The position numbers were made by a program, and so were the translations under genes. From Desulfobacter postgatei 2ac9 (GTDB lineage Bacteria; Desulfobacterota; Desulfobacteria; Desulfobacterales; Desulfobacteraceae), in assembly GCF_000233695.2 (NCBI RefSeq), contig NZ_CM001488.1, forward strand, positions 3,521,601-3,585,600: 64,000 bases of DNA. Direction: 5' to 3'. The notes under the pieces were generated by a model. That model worked only from the letters and a program-made list of their open reading frames with translations. It searched no databases and was not told where the DNA came from. Of this stretch, positions 2,282 through 46,002 are shown one piece after another. Numbering within the stretch: the first letter of the stretch is position 1; the number at the start of each line of letters is the position of its first letter.

Positions 2282-2380
2282 CTATGTCGCGATAAAACCA
2301 CAACCTTCCTTGAAATACAGTTCCATGCCCTCTTTCCAGGGGCTGTCGTACTCGTCTTGATTGTTGGCTGTCGTATTCAT
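2282..2380 (-). pseudogene. Remnant of an Rpn/PD-(D/E)XK nuclease-family gene (N-terminus only)
   Basis: Thirty-two codons from ATG at 2380 read as a peptide containing NNQDEYDSPWKEGMELYFKE, the usual N-terminus of the Rpn-like 'recombination-promoting nuclease/putative transposase' proteins common in Desulfobacterota. A TAG stops it just where the family's FMAFFFP segment should begin, and no continuation was recognised. It is a scrap beside the Y1-transposase relic that follows. Confidence 0.45.
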
Positions 2381-2399
2381 ATGGCTATTTTAATCATAA

Positions 2400-2682: not shown

Positions 2683-2761
2683 CATCAAACAAACCGCATC
2701 TAATTATCTTAAACAATATAAGACCGCATAATAACACTCAAAAAACAGCAATCCATAGACA

Positions 2762-4093
2762 ATGAATAAACAAATTTTAAAGAATATTCGTGATAATCTT
2801 CCAGAGCCATTAAAATTAATTTCAGCGCCACTTTTCCGAAACAAGCTACTAAAAAATATTCAATATCTCAGATATGAAGAAATGTTGGAAGAGCGGGAGA
2901 ATTTAAGCTTGGATGAAATTCAGGCCCATCAATTTAAAGAATTAAAAGCTATTCTAGTACACGCTTGCCAGAACGTCCCATTTTATAAAAAACTTTTCAA
3001 TGATTCGAATTTCAACCCTTATGAAATTAAATATTGCGATGATATTGATGTGCTTCCTTTTCTTACAAAAAATATTATACGGCAAAATTTTGACAAACTG
3101 ATTTCTGAAATAAAAATCCCTGGGGGATATTATATCGCCACTACGGGCGGATCAACAGGGGAACCCTTGAAGGTACTATTGGATTATGATTGTGTTTTTA
3201 CGGAAAATGCCTTTGTTAATTATTTCAGGAAAAAACTCGGGTACCAGAAGAGAAACCGTCTGGTCACTTTTCGAGGTGTCGAATTTGGTGAAAGATTATG
3301 GAAATTTAACCCGATGCAGAACGAATACATTTTCTCACCATTCAAAATCTCGAAAAAGACTCTTCAAATATACCTGTCCAAAATCGAAAGGATAAAACCC
3401 GATTTCTTAAATGGTTATTTGTCTGCGTTGCATTACTTTGCAAAGCTTTTATCAAATAATAATCTCAAGATTATGAATCCAATTAAAGGCATTTTTCTTA
3501 TCTCTGAAAATATTAATAAAACCCAGCGAGCTTTTTTAGAGGATTTTTTTCAGATAAAAACAAGTACATTCTATGGCCATAGTGAGCGGTGTATCATCGC
3601 AGAAGAAATACAACCCAATGAGTACAAGTTTGATCCCTATTACGGCTATACCGAACTTATTCAGAATAAAGACAGTTCTCTGGCTATTGTTGGCACAGGA
3701 TTTCTGAACAAAACAATGCCATTGATACGTTACAAAACTGATGACATCTGCCGCAGGGTTGGCGACTTATTTACTATAGATGGTAGACGGAAATCTACAG
3801 AGGGGCTATACGGCGTTAATGGAGAATTTTTCAGCCATGCTGCCTTTAATTTTCACAGCGAAATTTTTAAGAATGTGACCAGCTACCAATTTGTACAACG
3901 ACAAAAAGGAAAGGCTGATCTGCTGATAATAGTAAATAATGATTTTAAAACCCACGAGATTGATCTAATGAAAAAAGAGATCGACAAAAAAACCAAGGGG
4001 GTTATGGAATTCGATATTCGAATTGTTGAGAATTTAATTTTATCTCAAAGAGGAAAATTTAAAATGTTTGTCTCAAATCACATCGATAAATAA
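2762..4093 (+). CDS. CapK/PaaK-like adenylate-forming enzyme
   Basis: This 443-residue protein belongs to the phenylacetate-CoA ligase/CapK family, ANL-type enzymes that activate a carboxylate with ATP. The phosphate-binding TTGGSTGEP is at residues 127-135, and a YGHSE motif followed by a conserved RYKTDD segment marks the rest of the adenylation site. Members in capsule and exopolysaccharide loci probably activate an acyl or amino-acid decoration, but the substrate is unknown. Here it sits between glycosyltransferases and a methyltransferase, all AT-rich. The ATG follows 80 bp after the transposase relic. Length is normal for the family. Confidence 0.8.
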   Translation: MNKQILKNIRDNLPEPLKLISAPLFRNKLLKNIQYLRYEEMLEERENLSLDEIQAHQFKELKAILVHACQNVPFYKKLFNDSNFNPYEIKYCDDIDVLPFLTKNIIRQNFDKLISEIKIPGGYYIATTGGSTGEPLKVLLDYDCVFTENAFVNYFRKKLGYQKRNRLVTFRGVEFGERLWKFNPMQNEYIFSPFKISKKTLQIYLSKIERIKPDFLNGYLSALHYFAKLLSNNNLKIMNPIKGIFLISENINKTQRAFLEDFFQIKTSTFYGHSERCIIAEEIQPNEYKFDPYYGYTELIQNKDSSLAIVGTGFLNKTMPLIRYKTDDICRRVGDLFTIDGRRKSTEGLYGVNGEFFSHAAFNFHSEIFKNVTSYQFVQRQKGKADLLIIVNNDFKTHEIDLMKKEIDKKTKGVMEFDIRIVENLILSQRGKFKMFVSNHIDK

Positions 4094-4239
4094 TTATGAA
4101 ACACCATATTTGTATTATCGACTGTATATCATCATCAGTTTCATATGACTGTCTGGATATTGAAAGCTACAGTGTTATCAGATTTACTCTTTCCTTTGGT
4201 AGAGTAACTATCTAATATCATAGATAATGGAGAATAAGA

Positions 4240-4938
4240 ATGATCAGTTTGACAAAAACACTAAGAAAATATACACAAAAAAATAGAGCACATTTTTTCT
4301 TTTCATTAATAGAAAAAATGAACCGCCCTATAAATATAATAGATTTAGGTGGAACTGCAACCTTTTGGGCTAGTTGGGGCTTGTCAGAAACAGATCATAT
4401 TCATGTCACTTTGATTAATAACCACCATGTGGATAAGACAAATATTGGCTATGATAATTCAATCCCTTATATTACTGAGATTATCAAGGATGTTAACGAA
4501 TTAGCTGTTGAAGACTTTCAGGGATACGATCTGATTTTTTCCAATTCAATGATCGAACACTTGGATAGCAGGCAGAAACAAAGCAATCTCGCCCAGACAA
4601 TTGAAAAATCTAAACGTCCATATTTCATACAAGTGCCAAATAAATATTTTATAATTGATCCGCATTTCCCTCACCCTTGTGTACCATTTTTTGCCTTATA
4701 TCCAAAAAACCTGCAAGCAAGACTGCTAACTGTTTATCGATTTGGGAGTGGTTCAAAAAGTAACTCATTTGAAGAGGCTCAAAGAAGGTTGAAATTTTAT
4801 AACCCTCTATCTTTGAAAGAGCTTAAAAAACTTTTCCCTTCTTCGGAAATAATAAAAAAAGAATCTCATTTGTTTTCCATCTCGCTGATTGCAATAAAAG
4901 GGGGTGTGTACCACCTTTTACATGGCAATAATCATTAA
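4240..4938 (+). CDS. Class I SAM-dependent methyltransferase
   Basis: A 232-residue protein. NIIDLGGTATFWASWG (from residue 32) is a motif-I-like SAM-binding loop, and DLIFSNSMIEHL (97-108) is the post-II/III segment typical of Methyltransf_11/23 enzymes. The C-terminal half (IQVPNKYFIIDPHFPHPCVPFF) resembles methyltransferases of polysaccharide clusters that act on sugars. GGAG (4229) precedes the ATG. It probably methylates a sugar of the polymer; the target is not known. Confidence 0.7.
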   Translation: MISLTKTLRKYTQKNRAHFFFSLIEKMNRPINIIDLGGTATFWASWGLSETDHIHVTLINNHHVDKTNIGYDNSIPYITEIIKDVNELAVEDFQGYDLIFSNSMIEHLDSRQKQSNLAQTIEKSKRPYFIQVPNKYFIIDPHFPHPCVPFFALYPKNLQARLLTVYRFGSGSKSNSFEEAQRRLKFYNPLSLKELKKLFPSSEIIKKESHLFSISLIAIKGGVYHLLHGNNH

Positions 4939-4941
4939 ATA

Positions 4942-5141
4942 CTCGACTATCAAGTTTTTTTTAATTCACTGAAATTATTAAAGATTCATGGTGGTTGGTG
5001 GCGAAATAAAAAGCAATGGCATGAATTTTAAAATTGAATAATATCAATTACTTGTGGTTTTCTAACTGGTTTTAGACTGCAAAAACAGTCATTTTTAAGT
5101 CCAGTGTTTACAAGGGTTGTGGAAAAAACTTGATAGTCGAG
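4942..5141. mobile_element. 200-bp MITE-like element with perfect 19-bp inverted repeats
   Basis: The ends CTCGACTATCAAGTTTTTT (4942-4960) and its exact reverse complement (5123-5141) bracket 162 bp with no coding capacity. The termini resemble those of the 157-bp elements at 15797 and 20233 (CTCGATGATCCAGTTTTT), so all are probably non-autonomous elements moved by related transposases. No convincing target duplication is visible. It lies between the methyltransferase and the next glycosyltransferase and does not break a gene. Confidence 0.7.
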
Positions 5142-5180
5142 GATTAAAAAACAAAATTTGAAAAACCTTAAGATCCGGTA

Positions 5181-6260
5181 TTGAAAAGAATAAAAAATAA
5201 AAAAACAGTATTAATGATAGGCACCCATCTTGAAACAAAAGGCGGTATATCATCCGTTGTTAATGTTTACAGAGCCACGACGCTTTTTGAAAAATGGAAT
5301 GTCAAATATATTCCAACCAGTTGTGATGGATCTTTCCTTAAAAAATTTGGCACTGCTTTTCGCTCTTTTTTACTTTACACTACAGGCGGTCTGATTACCC
5401 GTGCAGATTTAGTCCATATACATATGGCTTCACGTTTTAGTTTTTGGCGCAAACTTTTTTTCATCCTGGTCGCATTTTCGATGAAAGTGCCCGTCATAAT
5501 TCACCTGCATGGGGGTGAGTTCAATATTTTTTACGATCAAGAGTGTTCAGAATGGAAAAGAAGAATTATTCGTTACACATTTGAGCGGTCAAAAAATGTT
5601 ATAACGCTTTCGACTTTTTGGTCTAATTGGGTGAGACTCCGGTTTCCAGCCGCGGATGTAAGAGTCGTTTTCAATCCGGTTCTATATGCCAAAAAATATA
5701 TTGTTGATATTCGTCGCGTGGACACTATACTTTTCCTTGGCCGTATTGGACAAAAAAAAGGAGTTTTTGACTTAATTGATGCTATTTTACGTCTTGTGCC
5801 CCTCCACCCAAACCTTAAGCTGCTGCTGGGTGGGGATGGAGCGATAGAGGAGACAAAATCACGGGCACATAAAATTGAAGTTGGTCTTCATGTTGAAACG
5901 TTGGGCTGGATAGCTGGCGATATGAAAAACAAATTGCTCTCTCAATCAACTCTTTACGTACTCCCGTCTTATAATGAAGGCCTTCCCATGAGTATCCTGG
6001 AGGCAATGGCAGCAGGATTGCCAATTGTAAGCACAAAAGTTGGTGGGATACCGGAAGCAGTCACCGATGGAGTTGAAGGTTTTTTAATCGAGCCTGGAGA
6101 TGTAGAAGCACTTGCAAAATGTATTGATGTATTATTATCAGACTTGGATTTACGACATCGAATGGGAGCAGCGGGTAGGAAAAAAATCCAAACCGTTTTT
6201 TCTGCTGATATTATCGTGCCGAAAATAGAAGCATTATATTCAGAGATTACTGGAAGATAA
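5181..6260 (+). CDS. Glycosyltransferase family 4
   Basis: A 359-residue GT-B enzyme of family GT4. Seen: a KGGISSVV acceptor-side loop near residue 20, HLHGGEF near 108, FLGRIGQKKGVFDLIDAI near 184-201, and EGLPMSILEAMAAGLPIV (the E-x7-E donor-phosphate motif) near 265-282. It should transfer a sugar to the lipid-linked repeat unit on the cytoplasmic face. The frame opens with TTG at 5181; the first ATG in frame is 12 codons later but would cut into the first beta-strand, so TTG was chosen. Heparinase and algD follow in the same direction. Confidence 0.85.
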   Translation: MKRIKNKKTVLMIGTHLETKGGISSVVNVYRATTLFEKWNVKYIPTSCDGSFLKKFGTAFRSFLLYTTGGLITRADLVHIHMASRFSFWRKLFFILVAFSMKVPVIIHLHGGEFNIFYDQECSEWKRRIIRYTFERSKNVITLSTFWSNWVRLRFPAADVRVVFNPVLYAKKYIVDIRRVDTILFLGRIGQKKGVFDLIDAILRLVPLHPNLKLLLGGDGAIEETKSRAHKIEVGLHVETLGWIAGDMKNKLLSQSTLYVLPSYNEGLPMSILEAMAAGLPIVSTKVGGIPEAVTDGVEGFLIEPGDVEALAKCIDVLLSDLDLRHRMGAAGRKKIQTVFSADIIVPKIEALYSEITGR

Positions 6261-13790: not shown

Positions 13791-14043
13791 TATTTAATCC
13801 GGGCTGCCAACTGTTCAATATCACTATTGCCCGGAGGATTTTTTTCTGCCCAGGCAATAGCTTCGTTCAGTTCTGTCTGAACTTCCGGCATATGAATCCA
13901 TTTTTCATTATCAGGGATGAATCTTCCCAGCTTGACGAGAGCCAGACACCTGTATCGACTTTGCTTAACATGACAGTTTGTCCTGCAAATTTTTTGCCGG
14001 GGGAGATCTGGCCACTGCTTCCCATTGTTTTGATGATATCCAT
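13790..14043 (-). pseudogene. Frameshifted AbrB-like/small antitoxin gene
   Basis: From ATG 14043 (GAGGGAG eight bases upstream) the frame reads MGSSGQISPGKKFAGQTVML and on to DTGVWL. The family's second half (VKLGRFIPDNEKWIHMPEVQ, then NEAIAWAEKNPPG) continues in another frame to a TAA at 13790. Removing one CT of CTCTCGTC near 13945 restores one protein of about 83 residues. The SSGQISLGKK start is typical of AbrB-like antitoxins partnered with small RelE-like toxins. Confidence 0.6.
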
Positions 14044-14126
14044 AATGTACTCCCTCTGAGGTGAATCAGTATGAGATGTGGCAGCGCTTTCCATGAAACC
14101 GGGTCTTACCTGCTTCTGGCAGCCAG

Positions 14127-14160
14127 GTAGGGTGGGCAAAAGCAACGCGTTGCCCACCGT
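14127..14160. repeat. Palindromic hairpin repeat
   Basis: GGTGGGCAA and TTGCCCACC flank a short AT/GC spacer, giving a strong hairpin. Elements of this type are common dispersed repeats in proteobacteria. It lies upstream of the antitoxin relic and follows no gene on the + strand. Confidence 0.4.
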
Positions 14161-14246
14161 TGTATGTATAAACATTTCATACCGGATTTGTGCAGAATTT
14201 GAGAAAAATTCATTCAAAGCCTGTTTTAGATCGGTTGTAAGGGCAA

Positions 14247-14580
14247 ATTAAGCTGGAAATATTACGGCAGATAAAAGCGATACCAGAATTTAATTTTATT
14301 CTTTTATGTTCTTTTTTCCGGCCCTGCCCGGAAAAGATGATTAAAATCAAGAATATTGCTGCACATCCGCTTGACTGGAATGTGATATTTGAAGAGTCTT
14401 TGTATCAAAAGGTCTTTCCCCTTGTATATAAAAATATTATAACCATTGTTCCCGACGCTCCTCCCGTCGGAATTTTAAAAAAATATCAGGTAATCTATGC
14501 AAAAAACGCAACAAAAAATCTCTACTATTCTGCCTTTTTGGTCAGGATTAGTAAATTATTCAATGAACGCAATATTAAAA
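14247..14580 (+). pseudogene. N-terminal part of an NTP_transf_5 nucleotidyltransferase, cut by an IS
   Basis: The frame reads KLEILRQIKAIPEFNFILLC and then PLDWNVIFEESLYQKVFPLV and YAKNATKNLYYSAFLVRISK, matching the helical N-terminus of the 'uncharacterised nucleotidyltransferase' family PF14907 found in polysaccharide loci. It is broken by the IS end at 14581, just before the LKG/DxD catalytic region. There is no ATG at the family's usual start; the frame opens at an ATT after a TAA, so the start may also be lost. The C-terminal piece lies at 15954-16099 beyond the insertion. Confidence 0.6.
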
Positions 14581-15796
14581 CTCGATGATCCAGTTTTTTG
14601 GGATTAGACAATGTCACAATATTGGGAAATGTAAAGGCTGGTCAAGTCGATGGTATAATGCCAACTATTCCAGCTGATATCTCACCCATCGGTTGGCCAG
14701 CCTCCACTGAGCAGAATAAAATAAGTTTTACTTGAATACAAGGGTTCCATTGCGATATATGCTTCATTTCTGCAAATAATAAATGAGGCGGATGTGTTAA
14801 TAGAGAAGCTGTTGCCGTTTGTTGAAAATTATACCGAGTCACTGAATACTGAGTTAACAGAGTCTTCCCCTGGGATGACCTTAAGTAAATCACAAAAATT
14901 CTGGCTGGGTTTCTGCATCACTGGAATCATTTTAACCAACAGCATCAATTGGACTGCTTTTTCCCGTATCAGCATAGGACGGTATAAAAAAACAGCACTT
15001 TCCTGGATGTTTCGCCATTCTAAAATTGCTTGGGAGCATCTGTTCCACTTCAGTCTCAAAATTATTTTCAAAGTATATGGTATCACCAAAGGCGTTGTCA
15101 GTATTGATGATTCCGATAAAAAGCGCAGTAAATGCACAACAAAAATTTTTGGCGTCAACAAAATAAAAGACAAATCAACAGGCGGTTTTTGCATGGGGCA
15201 AGGTTTGGTATTTTTGGTATTGGTAACACCGAAAATAACCATTCCAATAGGCTACGCCTTTCATGTTCCTGATCCAAAAATCAGCGAATGGGTCAAGGAG
15301 AATAAAAGGTTAAAAAAGGCTGGAGTACCAAAATCAAAACGCCCGAAAAAGCCGGTGCGATCAGATGAATATCCAACTATTTCAAGTATTTCTATAGCTC
15401 TTTTAAAAACCTTTGTACAGCAACACCCTGAAATAAAAATAGAAGCAATTGTTGCAGATGCCTTGTATGGTAATGCTGAGTTCATGGATGAAGCTTCAAA
15501 AATTGCAGGAAGCGCTCAAGTCATTAGTCAAATAAGGTACAATCAAAATATTTCATTCAAAAACAGTAAAAAATCAGTGGAAAAATATTTTGAAAATATT
15601 CAACCGATTCAAAAAACCATACATATACGCGGAGGCAAAGGGGTTGTTGTACTTATTAAAAGTGCCAGAATACATGTGTGTGCCCATAGAAAAAAACGAT
15701 TTGTCATTGCAATAAAATACACTGGAGAAGAGGACTATCGGTACCTTGTCGCTTCGGACCTGACCTGGCGATATGCTGATATAATAGATGCTTTTA
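14581..15796 (+). mobile_element. Truncated IS with DDE transposase (IS4/IS701-like)
   Basis: The left end CTCGATGATCCAGTTTTTTGGG starts at 14581. The transposase frame opens at GTG 14794 and carries GVVSIDDSDKKRSK (first catalytic Asp) and IEAIVADALYGNAEFMDEAS (second Asp). It stops after about 334 residues at YADIIDAF, exactly where the family normally continues with the RWLVE-FFE segment containing the last catalytic Glu. At that point the 157-bp element begins. The transposase therefore lacks its C-terminus and its own right end and is presumably inactive. Confidence 0.7.
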
Positions 15797-15953
15797 CTCG
15801 ATGATCCAGTTTTTAGAGCTTGACTTTAAGAAATGCCCAAATAACAGGCATTTCGGTAGATACCATGAAGCCGTCATATAAATCATTAAACCCTCAAAAG
15901 CATTGATAAATGGGCTTATTAAAAATGCAACACAAAAAAACTGGATCATCGAG
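15797..15953 (-). mobile_element. 157-bp MITE-like element, copy A
   Basis: It has terminal inverted repeats CTCGATGATCCAGTTTTT with one irregular base at the other end, and no coding capacity. It is the reverse complement of the element at 20233-20389 with a single mismatch in 157 bases. A possible 5-bp target duplication TTTTA flanks it (15792-15796 and 15954-15958). Its termini match the left end of the adjacent IS, so it is probably mobilised by that transposase type. Confidence 0.8.
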
Positions 15954-16099
15954 TTTTATAAATAAACTCCAATATGTTTTCAGGCTTATTTTCAGACCCA
16001 CTGATAAAGATTGGCTGTGTTGTCCTGTGCCGGGAAGCTTTGGGTTTATTCATTATGTTATAACCCACATTGAGCAGGTGATTTTTTTAAAAAAATAAT
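15954..16099 (+). pseudogene. C-terminal fragment of the NTP_transf_5 nucleotidyltransferase
   Basis: After the miniature element the frame reads INKLQYVFRLIFRPTDKDWL and then PVPGSFGFIHYVI to a TAA at 16097. This is the conserved end of PF14907 proteins (R-x-lF-x-PT-x-DW followed by a proline-rich turn). Together with 14247-14580 it shows one gene split by mobile elements, with about 200 central codons, including the catalytic site, deleted. Confidence 0.5.
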
Positions 16100-33951: not shown

Positions 33952-35628
33952 TCAAAACTTATGATAAATTTGTTCCTGTTCATCCAGGATATCGTCCAGG
34001 ATGGCTTGGGTGGTATAGGGGTTCATGATAACGCTCCGAAGTACTACCACCATGAAGTCATCCTCCGGCACAAGTTTAAGCCGGGTTCTGGAGACAAAAC
34101 TTTTTCCTGCTTCCCGCTGGATGCGCTGGATGCGGATATTGATCTCATCAAGTTCCTGGTTTAAGCGTTTGCGCTCCTCCCCCCGGGCGGTTGCCAGTTT
34201 CTGCCGAAAGGACATGGGCACCAACCGGTAGGTCAGAATATTAAGCACAGGCCGGGTCACCAGTTCAAATTCCGGCCGCTCTTCTATTTTTTCGGCAAAT
34301 GCCCTGGCCGTTTCAATACCATGATCAATCATCAGGGCATACCCTTTGGCACCCATTATTTTTAAGGATGCATCCAGGATAAGGCAGGCGGCCTCCCTGG
34401 AACCTTCAAGGGTTTTGATGCCTAAATCCACAGAGCCCTTTCGGTTTACGTATCGGGCATGGTAGGCAATGGCGTCAAGGGCATTGGCGTTTTTAAAATA
34501 GACCATGCCCGCTCCCATGGGCATGTAAAATTGTTTGTGGCCGTCAATGGTGACGGAATCTGCCCGTTCAATGCCTGAAAGCAGATGGGCATAGGTGTGT
34601 GATAACAGTATCGGCCCGCCCCATGCCGCATCCACGTGGAAATGGATCTGCTCCTGTTCACAGATATCGGCCATCTGTTGCAATGGATCAATGGTCCCTG
34701 TTTCAGTGGCCCCGGCAATGCCCACGATTGCGGCAATTTTTGTACGCCCTTCCTGCTTCAGGTCCTTGATCGTTTGTTTAAGTTTGTCTATATCAATGGT
34801 GTGATCCGGTTTAACATCTACGGCAATAATGTTTTTATTGCCCAGGCCCAGAATCCCGCTTGCTTTTCTCAAAGAGTAGTGCGCCCGACGGGACACGAGG
34901 ATAACCACCCGGTCCGTGTGGTGAACGCTCATGGCCTTGAACAGGCCGTCTTCTTCAATAGTTGAAAAATCATCTTTGGGCGGAAAAAGTTTATTTCTGG
35001 CCACCCACATGGCGGTTATGTTGGCCGTGGTGCCGCCGGATGTAAATGCGCCCAAAGCCGTACGGGTATTCTGGACATGCGCCCGGTAGAAGGCCTGGCT
35101 TTGTTTGAAAATCAGGCAGTGGATTTTGGCCAGCACCTGCCTTTCAATGACAGCCAGCACCTTGGAAGTTTCCATTTTAATGAGATTTTGGTTCAAGGCT
35201 GCGGTAATGGCTTTAAGGTGCACCATGAAAAAGGGCAGGGCGGATGTCATGTGGCCGATGAAGTAAGGCGATGCCACATTGACGGCTTTAGGGGCAATGT
35301 CTTTAATGATATCTTCGATAACCTGGCCCAGATTTTTCTGGGGATGATCACTGATTTGAACGTCCATGTAATTTTTAGCCAGTTCAGTGATACTGATCTC
35401 TTCGGTGACGCCCACGTGCCGGTTAAGAAAATCGTGCAGACCGAACAGGATCTGCTCCATGTATTTAACCAGGGTCTTTTTGCTGTTTTCATCATAGGGA
35501 CGGATGAAAACCCGGTCCAGGGATTTGCGGTCTGCGATCAACTGTCCATCAGTTTTTCGTATATTTTTATCTCCTTGGGTCCAGGTGCTGTTTCCAGGCA
35601 ATGAAAAAAATGAAAAAGAGGATGACAT
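33952..35628 (-). CDS. PLP-dependent decarboxylase, glutamate/aspartate type (PanP-like)
   Basis: A 558-residue group II decarboxylase using pyridoxal phosphate. The cofactor lysine lies in TIDGHKQFYMP near residue 363, preceded by HFHVDAAWGGPILLSH (the Asp that pairs with PLP). FTSGGTTANITAMWVARNKL marks the PLP-phosphate region. The length and the C-terminal NPYTTQAILDDILDEQEQIY fit the putative aspartate 1-decarboxylase PanP family, which makes beta-alanine for pantothenate in bacteria lacking PanD. A glutamate or other amino-acid decarboxylase cannot be excluded. Confidence 0.8.
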   Translation of the reverse strand: MSSSFSFFSLPGNSTWTQGDKNIRKTDGQLIADRKSLDRVFIRPYDENSKKTLVKYMEQILFGLHDFLNRHVGVTEEISITELAKNYMDVQISDHPQKNLGQVIEDIIKDIAPKAVNVASPYFIGHMTSALPFFMVHLKAITAALNQNLIKMETSKVLAVIERQVLAKIHCLIFKQSQAFYRAHVQNTRTALGAFTSGGTTANITAMWVARNKLFPPKDDFSTIEEDGLFKAMSVHHTDRVVILVSRRAHYSLRKASGILGLGNKNIIAVDVKPDHTIDIDKLKQTIKDLKQEGRTKIAAIVGIAGATETGTIDPLQQMADICEQEQIHFHVDAAWGGPILLSHTYAHLLSGIERADSVTIDGHKQFYMPMGAGMVYFKNANALDAIAYHARYVNRKGSVDLGIKTLEGSREAACLILDASLKIMGAKGYALMIDHGIETARAFAEKIEERPEFELVTRPVLNILTYRLVPMSFRQKLATARGEERKRLNQELDEINIRIQRIQREAGKSFVSRTRLKLVPEDDFMVVVLRSVIMNPYTTQAILDDILDEQEQIYHKF

Positions 35629-35970: not shown

Positions 35971-36336
35971 ATGAACATCTCAATCACTTTCAAAAACATC
36001 CCTTCATCTGATGCTGTAAAATCCCATGTTGAAAAGAAATTAAGTAAATTAGATAAAATGCTGGATGGCCCGGCCGAGGCCCAGGTTGTCTTGGCAGATG
36101 AAAAATTGCGCAGCATTGCTGAAATCAATCTGACTTGCAACAAACTGAAAATTCATGCCAGTGGTGAGGCTGAAGAAAACAACATGTACGCAGCCATTGA
36201 TAGTCTGGCCGAAAAAATTAAAATCCAAATCAATAAATTCAAAGAGAAGCAAAAACGGCACCTGGCTGGTGACAAACAAAGTATCAAAAAAGAGGCGCTG
36301 GAATATGAAGTGCTGGATGACACAGATAGCGAATAA
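35971..36336 (+). CDS. hpf: Ribosome hibernation-promoting factor, short form
   Basis: A 121-residue HPF/YfiA-family protein that inactivates ribosomes in stationary phase. The beta-alpha-beta-beta-beta-alpha fold is clear: MNISITFKNIPSSDAVKSHV, EAQVVLADEKLRSIAEIN, LKIHASGEAEENNMYAAIDS and LAEKIKIQINKFKEKQKRH. It lacks the C-terminal dimerisation domain of long HPF, so it is the short form. A strong AAGGAGAG sits seven bases upstream, and the gene has its own terminator. Confidence 0.93.
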   Translation: MNISITFKNIPSSDAVKSHVEKKLSKLDKMLDGPAEAQVVLADEKLRSIAEINLTCNKLKIHASGEAEENNMYAAIDSLAEKIKIQINKFKEKQKRHLAGDKQSIKKEALEYEVLDDTDSE

Positions 36337-36363
36337 ATTTTTGCCTGAAACCTAATTTAACCG

Positions 36364-36400
36364 GATCCCAGTTCCGAAAAGAACTGGGATCTTTTTTTTT
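36364..36400 (+). terminator. Rho-independent terminator of hpf
   Basis: GATCCCAGTTC, loop CGAAAA and GAACTGGGATC form a perfect 11-bp stem followed by nine T. It lies 27 bp after the hpf stop. Confidence 0.95.
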
Positions 36401-36423: not shown

Positions 36424-36481
36424 GTGTTTGAACGCAAATTTTTCTGCAACGCCGCAGATGGGTGACTTTGCGTTCAAACAC
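36424..36481. repeat. Perfect 15-bp inverted repeat at the end of the arginine kinase gene
   Basis: GTGTTTGAACGCAAA (36424-36438) and its exact reverse complement (36467-36481) flank 28 bases. The right arm reaches the stop codon of the minus-strand kinase gene. With no T-run it is a poor intrinsic terminator; an attenuator, RNA-processing hairpin or small mobile remnant is possible. Confidence 0.6.
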
Positions 36482-37512
36482 TATAAATTCCTTTCCGCCT
36501 GGATAATGGCCTCCAATCCTTTGTGAAGATCCTTTACAATGGTATTGGCGCTGATATCTAACCTGCGGGCATTGGAGATATCAAACACTGCTTTTTCAAC
36601 AGCCGTTTTTTCTCCGTCTGTACCCCGGATCTGGAGGTGGTACGCCCTGGTTATGGCTTCGAGAAGAGATCTCTTTTTCTCCAGTTGTTTAAGATGGATA
36701 TGTACCCCTGCCCGCATGGCTGTTCCAATATTGGTGGGGCAGGCTGTAAGAAAGCCCTTTTTCCGGTCAAAAGCAAAATCAAGTTTATCCTCCAATGCCC
36801 TGACTATCTGTATCAACCGGTTAAAGACATAAGCAAGGTCACCGCCCTGGGACTGGGCTATGATGCGCAGATGATCTTCCTCATTGACCCATATTCTGAG
36901 CACCTTGTCCCGGCTTATGAATATGCCGCGTCCCAAAGGGTAATCGCGGTTTATGCCGGCCGACGCCATGAATCGGTCGCCTTTCCGGAAAGCCAGCCCT
37001 TTTTCTAACAGGGCATTGAACTGTTTTTCATCCAAATCAGTAAAAGAGGTATAGGTGCCGGATAATTTTTCAGGTAAATTTTTGAAGAGATGTTTTACCG
37101 TATTTTCCAGGGCCAGCCGCTGATCCGGGTTCATGTTGCCTGAAAAAGGAAACCTGCATAGATTTCTTGCCACCCGTATCCGGGATGAACGTATAAATGT
37201 CTGTTCCGGGTCCAGGTCCGGCAGAACGGCTTCCTGCAGGCCTGGCTTATGAGACCAGCCCGGATTAAGACGATGGTAATCCTCAATGATGGGCAGCAGC
37301 ACCGGTGCAAAGCAGTCATAGCTTTCCATATCCCCGGCATAGATCCCAATGCTGGAGTCGGGATTTTCAATTCCGGAGGTGATGGCTTGATCAAGCGTGT
37401 ATCCCGACGGGGTGCGGATTGTTTTAAGATCGTTATAAAGTGCAATGGTCAGGTACTGCTTTATTTTGGAGCGGGATGAGGCGTGAAACGGCAGTTCCTG
37501 ATCAGCTTTCAT
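36481..37512 (-). CDS. Arginine (phosphagen) kinase
   Basis: A 343-residue ATP:guanido phosphotransferase that stores energy by reversible phosphorylation of arginine. Unlike McsB it has the phosphagen-kinase N-terminal domain: SGYTLDQAITSGIENPDSSI (36-55) and GIYAGDMESYDCFAP (56-70). The catalytic domain has RSSRIRVARN (108-117), NEEDHLRI (210-217), the reactive Cys258 in TACPTNIGTAMRAGVHI, and RGTDGE (296-301) in the flexible loop. All key residues are present. Bacterial arginine kinases are rare but known in deltaproteobacteria. The start overlaps the Cys-rich protein by 11 bp. Confidence 0.92.
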   Translation of the reverse strand: MKADQELPFHASSRSKIKQYLTIALYNDLKTIRTPSGYTLDQAITSGIENPDSSIGIYAGDMESYDCFAPVLLPIIEDYHRLNPGWSHKPGLQEAVLPDLDPEQTFIRSSRIRVARNLCRFPFSGNMNPDQRLALENTVKHLFKNLPEKLSGTYTSFTDLDEKQFNALLEKGLAFRKGDRFMASAGINRDYPLGRGIFISRDKVLRIWVNEEDHLRIIAQSQGGDLAYVFNRLIQIVRALEDKLDFAFDRKKGFLTACPTNIGTAMRAGVHIHLKQLEKKRSLLEAITRAYHLQIRGTDGEKTAVEKAVFDISNARRLDISANTIVKDLHKGLEAIIQAERNL

Positions 37513-37690
37513 AGCCCGAGGACTGGGAAGATATGCCCCGGGCCAGCCGGGTCTGGATCTGGTCTAAAATAATGCAGTCCGCATGGCATTTGGGCAGGTG
37601 TTCCCTGAATTCACAGTTGACGCATGGGCTTTGGGTCAGATACCCCACTTCGAAATCAAATAAATCTCTTTTTATCGTTTGATTGTCCAT
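37502..37690 (-). CDS. Small Cys-rich protein coupled to the arginine kinase
   Basis: A 62-residue protein with Cys at 23, 26, 35 and 39 (CVNCEFREHLPKCHADC), i.e. C-x2-C-x8-C-x3-C, which could bind Zn or an Fe-S cluster. Its last 11 bp overlap the kinase start, implying translational coupling. McsA, the zinc-finger activator encoded next to McsB in Firmicutes, is a functional analogy only; the spacing and sequence differ. Function unknown. Confidence 0.75.
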   Translation of the reverse strand: MDNQTIKRDLFDFEVGYLTQSPCVNCEFREHLPKCHADCIILDQIQTRLARGISSQSSGYES

Positions 37691-38025
37691 ATTCTTTAAA
37701 TATTATACTACAGGTTGAAATGTCAGCTTTTATATCATTTAATTTAGGTCCGGGTCAATATCCTGTGTTCGGGGTAAATCCTGTATTCTTTACTGAGATT
37801 CTCCGTATTGCCCTGTCAAGCGATTCCGGGTGATCTTAGTGCCCTAACTAATGATCTTGGGTTGGCAGCTGTTCAATAAACCGAACATAACCTTTTTGTC
37901 ATTTGACACCACATTTGCCCGCGCTATATTAGATCGAAATATTGTTCTTTCAGGGCCGGCCCTCTTTTATGGCCGTCTACAGTAACGGCCCAAAATAAAG
38001 GCCGGAACATAAGGATTGACAAATT
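37691..38025. other. Divergent promoter region between the kinase unit and the moxR-bat operon
   Basis: The right half holds the strong sigma-70 promoter listed separately. A frame across 37624-37833 has no family features and overlaps the Cys-rich gene, so it was not called. Nothing else was recognised. Confidence 0.5.
37903..37930 (+). promoter_or_regulatory. Sigma-70-type promoter of the moxR-bat operon
   Basis: TTGACA (37903-37908), a 16-base spacer and TATATT (37925-37930) match consensus. The start site would be about 90 bp before the moxR start codon. Confidence 0.65.
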
Positions 38026-39000
<975 letters not shown>

Positions 39001-39024
39001 GCAATAGTTACAGGTGATCATGAA

Positions 39025-39900
39025 ATGATTCCTGCCCATATCATAAAAAAAATTAAGCAAATTCATATAAAGTCCCGCAAAACAGTCAACACCCTGATGG
39101 CAGGGCAATACCGCTCTGTCTTCAAAGGCTCGGGCATTGAATTTGAAGAGGTGCGCGAGTACGCCCCGGGTGACGATGTCAAGTCTATTGACTGGAATGT
39201 CTCTGCGCGTACGGGAAAGGTGTTTGTCAAGCTGTTCAGGGAAGAGCGCGAATCCATTGTCATGTTGCTCATTGACATGAGCGCGTCTTTAAATTTCGGC
39301 ACCCATTCGGGCAGCAAACTTGAAAAGGTGGCCGAACTTGCATCGGTTCTGGCATTTAATGCCATTAAAAATAATGACAAGGTGGGTGTGATTTTTTTCA
39401 CGGACCAGGTGGAAAAGTATATCCCGCCTAAAAAGGGCTCTGCCCATATCTGGCGGGTGATCAAGGAAATTTTTACCTTTGCGCCCAGAGGCGTGGGCAC
39501 GGATATCGCCTGTGCCCTGGATTTCATGGCAAAAATCAGTAAAAAGCGCAGTTTTGCCTTTGTGATTTCCGATTATCTCTCTCCGGAGTACGAAAAAAAC
39601 CTGCGCCTTTTAAACCGGCGGCATGAGGTGGTGGGCCTGCGTGTGTTTGATGAGGGGGCTTTTCACCTGCCCTTTGCCGGTATTGTGCGGGTAAAGGATT
39701 TTGAAACCGGGGAAGAGACGCTCATGGATGCGGGCAGCAAAAAGATGCGGCAATGGTATACGGATCAGCGGCAGAAAATCCATTCTTTGACCGAATCGGT
39801 GTTTACCAAAGCCCGGGTGGATCTTGTGGATGTCACCACGGCTGAGAGTGTGTCCGACGTATTGACCCGGTATTTCATGCTGCGGGAGAGCAGACGCTGA
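39025..39900 (+). CDS. DUF58 protein of the bat operon
   Basis: A 291-residue DUF58 protein with the family signature VFKGSGIEFEEVREYAPGDD (residues 32-51) and IDWNVSARTGKVFVKLFREE. A VWA-like fold follows with the MIDAS start LLIDMSASLNFG (DxSxS). DUF58 proteins partner MoxR ATPases. The stop overlaps the next start by one base (TGATG), so it is tightly coupled. Confidence 0.9.
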   Translation: MIPAHIIKKIKQIHIKSRKTVNTLMAGQYRSVFKGSGIEFEEVREYAPGDDVKSIDWNVSARTGKVFVKLFREERESIVMLLIDMSASLNFGTHSGSKLEKVAELASVLAFNAIKNNDKVGVIFFTDQVEKYIPPKKGSAHIWRVIKEIFTFAPRGVGTDIACALDFMAKISKKRSFAFVISDYLSPEYEKNLRLLNRRHEVVGLRVFDEGAFHLPFAGIVRVKDFETGEETLMDAGSKKMRQWYTDQRQKIHSLTESVFTKARVDLVDVTTAESVSDVLTRYFMLRESRR

Positions 39901-40463
39901 TGCTTGAGGATATTCATGATATACGGCCGCCGGTGATGACAGGCATTGATCCGGGATTGATCCGGGCTCTTCTTTGGGGAGCCGGGACCGTTGTTCTTTG
40001 TGCGCTGATTGTCCTGCTTGTACGGTACTGGTTAAAAAAAAGAAAAAACAGGATCATAGATCTTCAGGCTCTGCCTCTGCTTTCGCCATACGAAACAGCC
40101 GTAAGGGACCTGGAACGGTGTATGGCCGATTTCGGCCACGATGCCAAAATTTTTTATTTTGAACTGGGCCGCATTATGAAAGCCTATGTTTCAGCCACCT
40201 TTCAAATCAACTGTTCCGAGATGACCTCCCAGGAGATGGCCCGAGCCGTAAAAAAATTTAAGTATCTTGATTCTAAGGTGAAAACAGAATTGATCCGGTT
40301 CCAGGAGCAGTGCGATCCCATCCGCTATATGCCAGTGGATGCTCAAGGGCCTTTGGATGCCGGGCGGATGCAGCAGGATCTGACCTTTGCCGGCAGCCTT
40401 GTGACAAGCATTGAGCAGATTGTCGCAGATGCGATGGTCAGAGAAAAAGCGGAGAGTGCCTGA
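39900..40463 (+). CDS. DUF4381-like membrane protein of the bat operon
   Basis: A 187-residue protein with one membrane helix (LWGAGTVVLCALIVLLVRYW, about 29-50) followed by a basic KKRKNR stop-transfer and a cytoplasmic domain (LPLLSPYETAVRDLERCMAD). This layout matches the DUF4381 member between DUF58 and batA in many moxR loci. It overlaps both neighbours by a few bases. Molecular function unknown. Confidence 0.8.
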   Translation: MLEDIHDIRPPVMTGIDPGLIRALLWGAGTVVLCALIVLLVRYWLKKRKNRIIDLQALPLLSPYETAVRDLERCMADFGHDAKIFYFELGRIMKAYVSATFQINCSEMTSQEMARAVKKFKYLDSKVKTELIRFQEQCDPIRYMPVDAQGPLDAGRMQQDLTFAGSLVTSIEQIVADAMVREKAESA

Positions 40464-41494
40464 TGTTTCGATTTGCCTCACCCTGGTTTCTGCTGCTGCT
40501 TATTCTGCCCTGGCTCTGGCTGCTGGTTCACACGGTTAAGAGTACCAAACGGTTTTCATTCAAGTGGCTGCCCAAGCCTTCTGGCCACACGATCCGGGTG
40601 TCAAGCCTGACCGGTACTTCCCACGTGCCGTTCAGTTTTGCTGTAATGGGGGCCCGTCTCATGCCCCTGGTGAAGGTGCTGGGCTTGAGTCTTATGATTC
40701 TTGCCCTTGCCCGGCCCCAGGCCGGCGAGCGCAAAATCAATGTAGATACCGAAGGGATAAATATTGTTCTGGCCCTTGACCTGTCCGGGTCCATGAAAGC
40801 CCTTGATTTCAAACGAGACGACAAGATCGTCACCCGTCTTGACGCGGTCAAGGGGGTGATTTCCGATTTCATCATGAAAAGGGAAGGGGACCGCATCGGC
40901 CTTGTGGTGTTCGGCACCCATGCCTTTACCCAGGTGCCGTTGACCCGGGACTACAACACCATTGCATTTATGCTGGATCATTTAAAGATCGGGGCTGCCG
41001 GACCCAACACCGCCATTGGCGATGCCATGGGTATTTCGCTCAAGCGCCTGGAAGACATTCCGGCCAAATCGAACATCATTATTCTGCTCACCGATGGTAA
41101 GAGCAATGCCGGAGAATTGTCCTGGCAGGAGGCCGCCAAGATCGCGGCCCAAAAAAAGATTAAAATCCACACGATCGGCGTGGGCTCTACGGGCAAAGCC
41201 CCTTTCCTTGTGGACGGACTTTTTGGCCAGCAGTATGTGTACCGCCAGGTGGATATGGACTGGGACGCCCTTGACGCCATTGCCAAGCAAACCGGGGGAA
41301 CCTTTTTTAAGGCCAAGGATACCGACAGCCTTGCATCCATTTATAAAATGATTGATTCAATGGAAAAGACAACGGTTAAGGTGGACAAATGGGTGGATTA
41401 CAGGGAGCTTTATACCCTGTTCCTGATCCCGGGACTGCTGCTTTACCTTACATGCCTGGGCCTTGGCAGCACAAGACTTCTGGAGTTGCCTTAA
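40463..41494 (+). CDS. batA: BatA-like VWA membrane protein
   Basis: A 343-residue protein with two N-terminal helices (FLLLLILPWLWLLVHTVKS; PLVKVLGLSLMILALARP), a VWA domain with intact MIDAS (LALDLSGSMKA near 107, GPNTAIGDAMG, LLTDGKSNAG) and a C-terminal helix. The metal-binding VWA is presumably exposed to the periplasm. The family was named for Bacteroides aerotolerance, but its real role appears to be envelope stress. Coupled to the gene before it. Confidence 0.9.
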   Translation: MFRFASPWFLLLLILPWLWLLVHTVKSTKRFSFKWLPKPSGHTIRVSSLTGTSHVPFSFAVMGARLMPLVKVLGLSLMILALARPQAGERKINVDTEGINIVLALDLSGSMKALDFKRDDKIVTRLDAVKGVISDFIMKREGDRIGLVVFGTHAFTQVPLTRDYNTIAFMLDHLKIGAAGPNTAIGDAMGISLKRLEDIPAKSNIIILLTDGKSNAGELSWQEAAKIAAQKKIKIHTIGVGSTGKAPFLVDGLFGQQYVYRQVDMDWDALDAIAKQTGGTFFKAKDTDSLASIYKMIDSMEKTTVKVDKWVDYRELYTLFLIPGLLLYLTCLGLGSTRLLELP

Positions 41495-41516
41495 GCGGTG
41501 AAATAAGGATGCACAT

Positions 41517-43427
41517 ATGAAATTTGATCATCCACAAATTCTGTTTTTTCTGTGGGGGCTTTTGCCCCTTTCAGGATTGCTGGTGTACGGCATTTACCGG
41601 CACAAAAAGATCCTTGCCCGGTATGCAAAAGCGCCAATGTTTGAGCATATCCTGCCGGGCTTCTCCTATGGCCCCAAATGGGTGAAAGCTATTTTATCCG
41701 TGATGGCCACAGGATTTGCCGTGGTGGCCCTGGCAGGGCCACTTGCCGGATACCGCTGGGAAAAAATCACCCGGAAAGGGGTGGATATCATGATTGCCTT
41801 AGATTGCTCCCGCAGCATGCTCGCCCAGGATGTTTCCCCCACACGGCTGACCCGGGCCAAACGGGAAATCATCGACCTGACCCGCCTGATGCATTCGGAC
41901 CGGGCAGGACTTGTGGCCTTTTCAGGCGCTGCGGTGCTGCAATGTCCGTTAACCCTGGATTATAATGCGTTCGGCATTTTCCTTGATGCTCTGGACCCTG
42001 ATTATCTGCCTGTGGGAGGTACGGATTTGACCGCAGCCCTTGAGTCTTGTTACAATGGATTTGATCCTTCATCCACTGCGGGAAAAGCCGTTATTCTCAT
42101 CACCGACGGCGAGGATACCGCCGATGATGAAGCCGCCCTTACTGAGGTTGTGGAAAAATTTGCCAAGGAAAAAATCCGTATTTTCGCCATCGGGGTAGGC
42201 GATCGGGCCGGAGCCCCGATCCCGGCCAAGGGCGGGGGATTTAAAAAGGATGGGGCAGGCAATATCATTTTGTCAAAAGTGAACGAGACCATGCTTAAAA
42301 AAATTACTGCCATGACCCAGGGCCGCTATGTACGATCCGTGGCTGGGGACATGGACCTTGAACAAATTTATTCCGGGGATATCCTGGGCACCATGGAACA
42401 AACGGAACTGACCCAGGGTCGCAAAAAAGTCTGGGAAAAACGGTTTCAGTGGGCCTTGCTTCCCTGTGTACTGCTGCTGATTGCCGAAATTTGTTTTCCA
42501 CAGGGATCGGGCCGCAAGCACGGTGTTAAAAGTGGGCGTTCGCTGATTTGCCTGGTCATTGCCCTGGGCCTTATGACACCGGGACTTGCCAGGGCAGGTT
42601 TTTGGACTTCTCCGGTAAAGCAGGGCATGCAGGCCTGGGACGACAAGCAGTTCGAGCAGGCAAAAAAGCATTTTATTGACGCCCAGCTTGAAAATCCGGA
42701 CGACCCGCGTCTTTATTATAATATCGGTGCTGCGGCCTATGCAGCCGGTGAATATGACCTGGCTGAATCCAATTTTGCCCAGGCTGTGAATGCAAAGGAC
42801 GGGGAACTTAAACACAATGCCCTGTATAACCTTGCCAATACCCGTTATCGTCAAAACCATCTGGAAAAGGCAATAGAGGATTACCAGAGCCTGATTAACG
42901 CGTTCCCCGATGATACCCAGGCCAAAGAAAATCTTGAATTTGTAAAGAAAAAGCTTGAAGAGCAGAAACAGCAACAGCAGGATCAAAAAAATCAAGATCA
43001 GAAAAATAAAGACGAGCAGAATAAGAATCAGGGGGATCAAAACCAAAAGGACCCGAATAACCACGATCAGAATCAGAACCCGCAGGGCAGCGAGGATAAG
43101 AAAAATCCGTCCGAAAAACAGAATCAGAATCAGGCGCAGGGAAAGGATCAGAAAGACCAGGGAGATAAAAACCGGCAAAATAAACCTGAAAAAAATACCC
43201 AGCAGCCAAACCAACCCCAAACGGACCGGCATCAGGATATGTCAGCACAAGAGTCCCAAGACCCGACTGCCCAGACAGGGAAGGCCGGGCAGGGGCAAAA
43301 GGGAGAGGATAACATGCAGCAGGCACAGTCAAAAATGCTTGAAAATCGTCTCAACCGCCTCGAAGACAAACCCGGCATGGCCCTGATTCCGCAAACCGGA
43401 GTACGAAACAATGATAAAGACTGGTAA
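41517..43427 (+). CDS. BatB-BatC fusion: VWA membrane protein with TPRs and Q/N/K-rich tail
   Basis: A 636-residue protein. Residues 1-330 are BatB-like: two helices, MIDAS MIALDCSRSMLAQD (~92-105), LPVGGTDLTAALES, VILITDGEDTADDE and a C-terminal helix. Residues 370-475 are BatC-like TPRs (DPRLYYNIGAAAYAAGEYDL; KAIEDYQSLINAFPDDTQAK). Residues 475-600 are a low-complexity run of Q, N, K, D and E, and the last 30 residues (SKMLENRLNRLEDKPGMALI) match the BatC C-terminus. The tail is probably a flexible linker reaching across the periplasm. Confidence 0.88.
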   Translation: MKFDHPQILFFLWGLLPLSGLLVYGIYRHKKILARYAKAPMFEHILPGFSYGPKWVKAILSVMATGFAVVALAGPLAGYRWEKITRKGVDIMIALDCSRSMLAQDVSPTRLTRAKREIIDLTRLMHSDRAGLVAFSGAAVLQCPLTLDYNAFGIFLDALDPDYLPVGGTDLTAALESCYNGFDPSSTAGKAVILITDGEDTADDEAALTEVVEKFAKEKIRIFAIGVGDRAGAPIPAKGGGFKKDGAGNIILSKVNETMLKKITAMTQGRYVRSVAGDMDLEQIYSGDILGTMEQTELTQGRKKVWEKRFQWALLPCVLLLIAEICFPQGSGRKHGVKSGRSLICLVIALGLMTPGLARAGFWTSPVKQGMQAWDDKQFEQAKKHFIDAQLENPDDPRLYYNIGAAAYAAGEYDLAESNFAQAVNAKDGELKHNALYNLANTRYRQNHLEKAIEDYQSLINAFPDDTQAKENLEFVKKKLEEQKQQQQDQKNQDQKNKDEQNKNQGDQNQKDPNNHDQNQNPQGSEDKKNPSEKQNQNQAQGKDQKDQGDKNRQNKPEKNTQQPNQPQTDRHQDMSAQESQDPTAQTGKAGQGQKGEDNMQQAQSKMLENRLNRLEDKPGMALIPQTGVRNNDKDW

Positions 43428-46002
43428 ATTCAATAGGATGACCAAAACGCATCGGTATATGGCAGGACCGGCAATTGCAGCACTGCTCTTTTTCATTCCC
43501 TGCACAGCCCTTGCCTTTACCGCCACGGCCCAGGTGGATCAGACCCGTGTTACGCCCCAGGATGTTATTTCATTGCAGGTCATTGTGGACGGCGGTGAGG
43601 CCGACGTTGACACCTCTTCCATAACCGGGTTCCAGGTCAATCCCGCCGGGACCCAGTCGAGCAGAAGCTATATCAACGGCACATGGGGCCATAAGGTCAT
43701 ATACCGGTACATGCTGATTCCCTTAAAAACCGGCGTACTGACCATTCCGCCCATTACCTGTGTCCGGGACGGCGAATCGGTATTGACCAGGGAGATTAAA
43801 ATTCTGGTGTCGGAACCATCGGCCCGGATTGATGATGACAAGGGCGATTTTTTTGCCCAAGCTTTCGTGAGCAGTGACGGGATCGTGCCGGGACAACAGG
43901 TTGTGTATACCCTGAAACTATGCACGGCACAACAGATCAAAGGCGCCTCTTTTGATCCCCCCCGGTTTGAGGGCCTGACTGCCAAACAGTTGACGGACTG
44001 GTCCAAATATACCCGGACCATCAACGGCCGGGTCTTTATGGTCAATGAGACAAAATATCTGGTCCAGGCGGACGCACCCGGACAGGTTACCATTCCCCCG
44101 GCTGTTTTTGTGGCCCAGGTGCCCATACAGCGAACCAGACAACGTGATCCGTTTAATTCCGTATTCAATGATTCGTTTATTCGGGATTCATTCTTCGATA
44201 CCACACCGGCAAAGCCCGTGCGTGTAGTGTCCAATTCCGTGAATCTGACGGTCTCTCCTTTGCCGGAATATAAGGGGGATCAACCCTTTTCAGGCCTTGT
44301 GGGCCAATTTTCCATATCAAGTGAGCTGGACAAAAACAGGGTGAAAACAGGTGAATCCGCCACATTGACCGTTGTTATCAAAGGAACTGGGAACATTATG
44401 GATGCGGCGTTGCCTGCCCTGAACCTGAATACGGATCAGTTTAAAGTATATGAAGATACACCGGTTCAGGATGTGCAGGTTACCGAACAAGGATTTGAGG
44501 GACACAAAGTGTTCAAGCAAGCGTTGGTGGCTTCTGTTCCTGGAAAAGCCCTTATTCCCGAGCTTTGCCTGGTCTTCTTTGATACGGAATCAAAAACGTA
44601 TAAACTCACTACCACAACGCCTTTAACACTTGATGTCCAACCGGGCGGCCCTGTGACCTTGGTGGATGCGGCTTCTGCCGTAAATACGGATGCGCAAACC
44701 CAGGCGGCAGTCAAAAACGAAAAATCCGAAGTGAGGCTTCAGAACAGGGATATTCTGGATATTAAAGAAAACATTGCGAGTATCCACTCACGCCCCTGTC
44801 TTTCCATGGGCTGGTTTGTCTTTCTGGTCTGCCTGCCGGCCTTGGGGTTTGGGGCGGCAGGCACGGTCATGCAGTTTGGCGCCAGGGAAAAATCTTTGAA
44901 AGCGCAATACCGTAAAAAAGCATGTGATTATCTAAAACAAGCGCGTAAAACCTCACCGGAGGATCCCGGGTTTCTGCCGGGTTTATCTTCAGCTCTTACC
45001 TATGCCGTCCTGGCCCGGGGCGGCAAGGGGGGCGAAAGCCTGACCCGGGATGAGGTCCGGCAGATTCTCTCCTGCAACGGCCGGAACCAGGAAACCGTCA
45101 ACAAGGTTACCCAGCTGATGGATGCCATGGATGCCGCCCGTTTCGGAGGAAAACCCATGGATGAGAACACCGCAAGAAGCTGCCTGGGCCAGGTTTCATC
45201 CCTGATTCGTACGCTTATGGTTGTGGTCTGTGTGGGATTCTCCCTTTTTATGTTCCGGAGCGCGGGTCTGGCTGCCCAGGATAGTGCCGGGATAATCGCC
45301 TCAAAACAAGTTCACGCTGTAAAAGACACGGCGGGTGTATTTGTGGATGCGGTGCGTGCATATAAGGCAGGGGATTATGCGGCGGCGGCGGCACAGTTTG
45401 AGTCCATCGCTGAAACCCGCGTCGATAATCCGGATCTTTTTTATAATATCGGTAATGCATATTTGAAAAGCAACGATCTGGGCCGAGCCATCCTGTGGTA
45501 TGAGCGGGCCAGAAAACTTGCACCCTCGGATCCGGATTTAAGATTTAATTTGGCCTATGCCCAAAGCCTTTTAAAAGATAAAAAAGATACCAGCTTCTCC
45601 TTTGCCGGTATCATTTATTTCTGGCAGGGTCTGATTTCTTTGAAATGGCTTCAGTATGCCTCGATCACGCTTTCTTTTTGTTTTTTTATCTGGGCAACGG
45701 TTCAAAAATTCAGGGGCAGACAGATTTTTTCAGGTGTGGGCATTTTTATTTTTTTATTTTTTGCCGGCACAACTCTGGCTGCGGGACTTGAATACAACCG
45801 GATTAACTCGAATGTAAAAGCTGTTATTCTTGCTGAAAAAGCCGGTGTTCGTTCCGGAACCATGGATAATGCCACTCTCTTGTTTGACCTGCATGCCGGT
45901 ACACGGGTTCGGGTGCTGGAAAAGAAAGATAACTACATGAAAATCCGTTTTGCCAAAGACAAGGTGGGGTGGGTGGCATGCAAAAATGTAGAAATAATAT
46001 AG
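43411..46002 (+). CDS. BatD-BatE fusion: oxygen-tolerance protein with TPR and SH3 domains
   Basis: An 863-residue protein. After a signal peptide (GPAIAALLFFIPCTALA) come BatD Ig-like repeats (about 40-440: VTPQDVISLQVIVDGGEADV; FSISSELDKNRVKTGESATL). A membrane helix (~463), a cytoplasmic segment and another helix (~600) follow, then a BatE part with TPRs (AYKAGDYAAAAAQFESIAET; NPDLFYNIGNAYLKSNDLGR), two helices and a C-terminal SH3-like domain (VRVLEKKDNYMKIRFAKDKV). It starts 17 bp inside the previous gene. In many bacteria BatD and BatE are separate proteins. Confidence 0.88.
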   Translation: MIKTGKFNRMTKTHRYMAGPAIAALLFFIPCTALAFTATAQVDQTRVTPQDVISLQVIVDGGEADVDTSSITGFQVNPAGTQSSRSYINGTWGHKVIYRYMLIPLKTGVLTIPPITCVRDGESVLTREIKILVSEPSARIDDDKGDFFAQAFVSSDGIVPGQQVVYTLKLCTAQQIKGASFDPPRFEGLTAKQLTDWSKYTRTINGRVFMVNETKYLVQADAPGQVTIPPAVFVAQVPIQRTRQRDPFNSVFNDSFIRDSFFDTTPAKPVRVVSNSVNLTVSPLPEYKGDQPFSGLVGQFSISSELDKNRVKTGESATLTVVIKGTGNIMDAALPALNLNTDQFKVYEDTPVQDVQVTEQGFEGHKVFKQALVASVPGKALIPELCLVFFDTESKTYKLTTTTPLTLDVQPGGPVTLVDAASAVNTDAQTQAAVKNEKSEVRLQNRDILDIKENIASIHSRPCLSMGWFVFLVCLPALGFGAAGTVMQFGAREKSLKAQYRKKACDYLKQARKTSPEDPGFLPGLSSALTYAVLARGGKGGESLTRDEVRQILSCNGRNQETVNKVTQLMDAMDAARFGGKPMDENTARSCLGQVSSLIRTLMVVVCVGFSLFMFRSAGLAAQDSAGIIASKQVHAVKDTAGVFVDAVRAYKAGDYAAAAAQFESIAETRVDNPDLFYNIGNAYLKSNDLGRAILWYERARKLAPSDPDLRFNLAYAQSLLKDKKDTSFSFAGIIYFWQGLISLKWLQYASITLSFCFFIWATVQKFRGRQIFSGVGIFIFLFFAGTTLAAGLEYNRINSNVKAVILAEKAGVRSGTMDNATLLFDLHAGTRVRVLEKKDNYMKIRFAKDKVGWVACKNVEII

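Follow-up and report, generated by a model that had tools for sequence, protein, structure and literature searches.

The window, a 64,000-nucleotide stretch of the Desulfobacter postgatei 2ac9 genome, encodes an arginine kinase (AK) directly behind a gene for a 62-residue protein with four conserved cysteines (four-Cys protein). The two genes overlap, and their linkage is conserved in the host family Desulfobacteraceae. The four-Cys family is far more widespread than AK, and the four-Cys protein therefore probably serves a function apart from the kinase. We consider it probable that the AK gene was placed under the control of the promoter of a four-Cys gene that is older and conserved in its own right, giving rise to a compact operon, and that the main job of the four-Cys protein is separate from AK.

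Arrangement of the two-gene unit

The unit is located on the minus strand and is composed of the following features:
37729..37758 (-): promoter-like TTGACC-18 nt-TATAAA, 68 nt upstream of the four-Cys start
37502..37690 (-): first gene of the pair, 62-residue four-Cys protein with an FDFE-x-GYL-x2-SPC-x2-C-x8-C-x3-C core
37502..37512 (-): 11-bp overlap ATGAAAGCTGA of the four-Cys gene end and the kinase gene start
36481..37512 (-): arginine (phosphagen) kinase, 343 residues, PF02807 and PF00217 domains
36424..36481 (-): inverted repeat gtgtttgaacgcaaa / tttgcgttcaaacac, found by eye, reaching the kinase stop codon and followed by a short T run; possible 3' hairpin or terminator of the operon

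By sequence, AK is a true phosphagen kinase, as the initial annotation had proposed from its N-terminal domain and motifs. The matches of the open reading frame to PF00217 (E 2.9e-61) and PF02807 (E 7.4e-25) are both above the curated Pfam cut-offs, and AK is the single PF00217 match in the host genome. The NEED motif is formed by residues 210–213, followed by Cys258 and the RGTxGE motif at residues 296–301. Residues R111, R113, R180, E211, E212, D213, R216, C258, R267, R296 and E301 are at least 98% conserved in 62 loci including that of the window. The catalytic roles of the arginine set, the NEED glutamates, the reactive cysteine and the RGTxGE glutamate are known from Limulus AK.

The best match of AK among PDB sequences is the arginine kinase 4rf6 (E 2.5e-157, two tandem copies), followed by the taurocyamine kinase 4wo8 and a series of arginine kinases. 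Creatine kinases rank lower (3b6r, E 2.6e-56), and McsB entries far lower (6fh1, E 1e-25). The alignment with PDB arginine kinases spans nearly the whole length of AK and is much poorer with McsB. The arginine kinases 4rf6, 7re6 and 1m15, which we take to be of eukaryotic origin, share with the window AK both this near-full-length alignment and the main catalytic motifs. Unlike McsB, AK has the PF02807 domain, and it scores far under the two NCBIfam McsB cut-offs (146 against 385 bits and 132 against 500 bits). The enzyme most likely catalyzes the reaction ATP + L-arginine <-> ADP + phosphoarginine, and it would serve as an energy or phosphate buffer via phosphoarginine.

Bacterial arginine kinases are already in print. 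The passages on them in a review describe them as identified in a few species and list Desulfotalea psychrophila, Myxococcus xanthus, Moritella and Sulfurovum; they name Desulfotalea psychrophila, not Desulfobacterium autotrophicum, as an AK bearer, and the reference list of the review includes the M. xanthus AK paper and a 2008 Desulfotalea paper (PMC6429109). As in the window, these are phosphagen kinases in a bacterium, and Desulfotalea and the host were both deltaproteobacteria in the older scheme. The window AK is set apart from them, as far as their descriptions go, by its position behind a four-Cys gene and its presence in the majority of the genomes sampled from one family. No report of the four-Cys/AK pair was among the open-licence papers listed, and the one paper among them found to join arginine kinase and Desulfobacter is a sea-urchin gut study (PMC6406795).

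The cysteines of the four-Cys protein are spaced as C23-x2-C26-x8-C35-x3-C39, as first noted in the initial annotation, and the protein fits a Desulfobacterales family that we defined by the core FDFE-x-GYL-x2-SPC-x2-C-x8-C-x3-C. The four cysteines are invariant across a 74-row alignment of the family, and the motif is thus not due to chance. The N-terminal FDFExGYL core is invariant as well. No convincing family was found in Pfam (best E 0.17 for the window protein, 0.093 for seven relatives) or PHROGs (24 members, best E 0.0063 in one member), and the best match among PDB sequences had an E of 0.55. In NCBIfam, the window protein had no match, and the best E among 24 members was 0.011, in one member. 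The window had no Rfam match at gathering thresholds. AF2 modeled the protein with low confidence (mean pLDDT 58.8, pTM 0.32), too low to show metal-site geometry. The cysteine motif itself most likely forms a site for zinc or another metal on a small adaptor or regulator. Stop codons inside some four-Cys matches were considered as possible selenocysteine codons; in the nine loci inspected they are located at the C-terminal end of the match and at none of the four cysteines, and this reading was rejected for these loci.

McsA is a small cysteine-rich protein that binds zinc and activates the protein-arginine kinase McsB. The gene of a superfamily-related kinase domain beside that of a small cysteine-rich protein is common to McsB/McsA and the window pair. 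The resemblance of the four-Cys protein to McsA is so far one of analogy: no McsA- or UVR-like match was among the Pfam and NCBIfam hits of the window protein, the NCBIfam hits of 24 family members (E up to 1) or the Pfam hits of seven relatives (E up to 5), in libraries that may or may not include McsA models.

The 11-bp overlap, also reported by the initial annotation, recurs in relatives. A candidate ATG of AK is located exactly at -11 relative to the four-Cys stop codon in 29 of 65 pairs. The nearest candidate start (ATG, GTG or TTG) is between -11 and +33 nt in 63 of the 65, and at +70 and +102 nt in the remaining two. Among the loci that were read, no fusion of the two proteins was met.

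Neither the promoter-like site nor the inverted repeat was reported by an automated scan: the second hexamer of the former departs from the scan's rule, and the loop of the latter exceeds its limit. Among 64 AK-linked loci, 52 carry the pattern TTGAC-N15-20-TAT[AG] at 56–82 nt before the four-Cys start, against a mean of 0.6 and a maximum of 4 in mononucleotide shuffles; the pattern was picked by eye from upstream regions beforehand, and the count is inflated by relatedness. We propose that the pair is one operon, in which a sigma-70-type promoter would drive the four-Cys gene and then AK, and in which the translation of AK is probably coupled to that of the four-Cys gene.

Conservation of the pair in Desulfobacteraceae

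PF02807 was found in 69 of 86 genomes of the host GTDB family, at 70 places. At 65 of these places, the four-Cys gene immediately precedes AK on the same strand, and each of the 11 AK-bearing genera has at least one such place. The initial annotation had held that a lack of conservation would refute its proposal; conservation is what we found. Its description of such kinases as rare in bacteria fits the sample of the phylum, where one of 390 genomes has AK (that of the window), and the sample of the order, where 25 of 321 do, but not the host family. The frequency of AK in this family of sulfate reducers makes its use in anaerobes testable in culturable genera.

AK is without an adjoining four-Cys gene in G003, G006, G009 and G010 (genus g3) and in G079, and a genome-wide search found no four-Cys gene in these five genomes (G009 is 96% complete). 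The four-Cys family is present in 67 of the 86 genomes, three of which lack AK (G041, G055 and G078). Thus 64 genomes have both genes, five AK alone, three the four-Cys gene alone and 14 neither (Fisher p 1.4e-9). For the 42 genomes with a completeness of at least 90% and a contamination of at most 5%, the corresponding numbers are 36, one, three and two (p 0.03). Both statistics are inflated by relatedness and incomplete assemblies, and since the number of first-look candidates scored per genome was capped, absences are not absolute.

Three AK-less genomes of the family retain part of the arrangement. TTGAC-N15-20-TAT[AG] occurs in three of 47 AK-less upstream regions, a bare count within the range of shuffles (mean 0.4, maximum 4), and these three are exactly G041, G055 and G078. 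This fits a loss of AK with retention of the first gene and its promoter. In G055, a single contig that is 100% complete, and in G078, the four-Cys gene is still near the divergent MoxR operon, and another gene occupies the place of AK.

The pair is better kept than its surroundings, as judged from neighbor counts and from Desulfotignum. In 50 named-genome loci of the pair, some with short flanks, the neighbors include the MoxR gene in 24, HPF in five and PanP in five. Six Desulfotignum loci (L095, L101, L104 and L116–L118; 5 kb on both sides) keep the pair with none of 12 other window genes nearby.

Within the same genomes, the four-Cys protein is the more conserved of the two, with a mean pairwise identity of 69% against 53% for AK, and with the higher identity in 99.4% of pairs (62 loci; AK proteins shorter than 300 residues were excluded here and from the tree, and L001 and L030, which are one locus, were counted once). 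This is as expected if the main constraint on the four-Cys protein is not AK.

The four-Cys family beyond the pair

The initial annotation had suggested that the four-Cys protein is a dedicated partner of the kinase. The tight, conserved linkage in the host family agrees with this suggestion, which fails as a general rule. In the order sample, 232 of 321 genomes, from 108 of 140 genera, have the four-Cys family, and 25 genomes from six genera have AK; 21 genomes have both and 211 the four-Cys family without AK. The family, so strongly conserved, is without a convincing name in Pfam, NCBIfam and PHROGs. Among the best 80 of 140 four-Cys relatives from a scan of named genomes, 50 have AK directly behind and 30 have no AK in the DNA examined.

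All five order-sample genomes with AK outside the host family belong to family f18. None of their AKs has a four-Cys gene within 700 nt upstream, and no P-C-x2-C-x7-9-C-x3-C motif was found in the 10–12 kb examined around them. In two of these genomes, G229 and G266, a four-Cys gene is on another contig.

An AK tree of 73 rows was built from 62 AKs with a four-Cys gene, nine without and the PDB sequences 4rf6 and 7re6, and was rooted at its midpoint. The presence of an upstream four-Cys gene changes three times on this tree. Three g3 AKs that lack the gene nest beside a Desulfamplus AK that has it, and the AK of G079 sits among AKs with the gene. The five f18 AKs cluster with 4rf6 and 7re6 (100/95), and the window AK does not. 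So rooted, and with just two PDB sequences and none of the published bacterial AKs included, the tree does not reveal which way transfer went.

The gene that follows the four-Cys gene varies where AK is absent. Across 45 unique AK-less four-Cys loci with at least 350 bp downstream, the second gene encodes an MlaE permease in ten, phosphoglucose isomerase (PGI) in ten and a YfaZ-like protein in nine, and 16 have another gene or none. The Pfam names come from single cluster representatives, the YfaZ match is just under its curated cut-off, and one member of the YfaZ-like cluster has no hit. The three named counts are lower bounds, because the ORF picker skips neighbors whose longer start overlaps the four-Cys gene; it missed AK in Desulfotignum and others, MlaE in L145 and the YfaZ-like gene in L137, and AK linkage was taken from separate searches. 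The loci are those that the searches returned and not a random sample, and the second gene might follow lineage. Of the 45 loci, 35 have the next gene on the same strand and nine have it on the opposite strand; the previous gene is encoded on the opposite strand in 33 of 42 loci. Together with the second-gene counts, this indicates that the four-Cys gene is usually the first in its unit, with a varying second gene. In 18 of 30 AK-less loci (e.g., L131 and L133–L137), the four-Cys gene is preceded by a divergent gene from a cluster in which the one member tested matches DUF2760, and one or two Hsp70-like genes stand behind this divergent gene in 16 of the 30.

The four-Cys search of the phylum sample gave matches in 25 of 395 genomes: 13 strongly, all within the order, and 12 weakly, all outside it. 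A short four-Cys ORF is present in ten of the 12 (L221, L223–L226 and L228–L232). These ORFs are SPCxxCxxxxxDKNKCxxxCxxLxxxQ-like and share the C-x2-C-x8-C-x3-C half of the family, but have no FDFExGYL part (E 1.4e-4 to 8.3e-4). They are likely related to the Desulfobacterales family. Their open frames are 46–102 residues long, and they perhaps belong to a wider unannotated four-Cys superfamily. Separately, G156, G157, G247, G252, G302 and G348 each contain four to five divergent four-Cys paralogues (among L245–L270), some of which start with MISSPC and are without the FDFE part.

Origin and function of the pair

We hypothesize that the four-Cys proteins, about 60 residues long, are an older family distributed across the order, whose main partner would be something common to Desulfobacterales and not AK. 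The AK gene would have landed behind the four-Cys gene early in Desulfobacteraceae and taken over its promoter, and elsewhere in the order other genes hold the second place. Against a separate job of the four-Cys protein stand the association of the two genes in the family and the persistence of the pair in the six Desulfotignum loci. Since the presence of the two genes is associated over the 86 genomes, the four-Cys protein may have an AK-specific role within the host family alone.

In its strictest form, such a role would make the four-Cys protein of Desulfobacteraceae a dedicated regulatory subunit of AK that senses zinc or redox state, comparable by analogy to McsA for McsB, with kinship not implied. 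The linkage across all 11 genera, the short spacing with its frequent ATG at -11 and the co-occurrence argue for it, as does the correlation of AK and four-Cys pairwise identities (r 0.74), which common descent alone would give likewise. We nevertheless regard it as unlikely, given that the four-Cys gene is kept in three AK-less genomes of the same family and in 211 of the order, and that AK occurs without it in five genomes of the family.

A broader role, to which we give little credence, is that the family senses metal or redox state throughout the order and acts on the gene behind it, through either its product or its expression, and that in Desulfobacteraceae it became coupled to a captured AK. 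If this is true, phosphoarginine energy storage would answer to metal or oxygen stress.

The four-Cys gene could also be a regulatory leader cistron, whose translation or metal-bound product would control the following gene, be it AK, MlaE, PGI or the YfaZ-like gene. Its usual first position before a changing second gene and its overlap with the AK start codon are consistent with this. The strong constraint at the protein level, which includes the invariant N-terminal FDFExGYL, is unlike that of a mere leader, and nine of 45 AK-less loci have the next gene on the opposite strand and hence nothing to control, which makes this explanation improbable. A merely inherited neighborhood, with a common promoter and no functional or regulatory tie between the two genes, would agree with the partial synteny of the wider locus around the MoxR gene, but is very improbable given that the pair is kept without the tested neighbors, for example in Desulfotignum. 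Our preferred reading remains the capture of the AK gene by the promoter of an older four-Cys gene.

Several other features of the window were observed. A MoxR-DUF58-vWA-type operon (38026–46002(+)) is divergent from the pair; MoxR was assigned by profile match, and the DUF58 and vWA identities are presumed. A PanP-type pyridoxal-dependent aspartate 1-decarboxylase (33952–35628(-); TIGR03799 above cut-off) is encoded close to the kinase, and a short HPF/RaiA ribosome hibernation factor (35971–36336(+)) is convergent with the kinase gene and has a terminator-like hairpin beside it (36363–36392). The stretches 1–6000 and 14001–16000 are AT-rich, with G+C of 0.35 and 0.38 compared with 0.40–0.52 in the other 2-kb bins, and are possibly acquired DNA.
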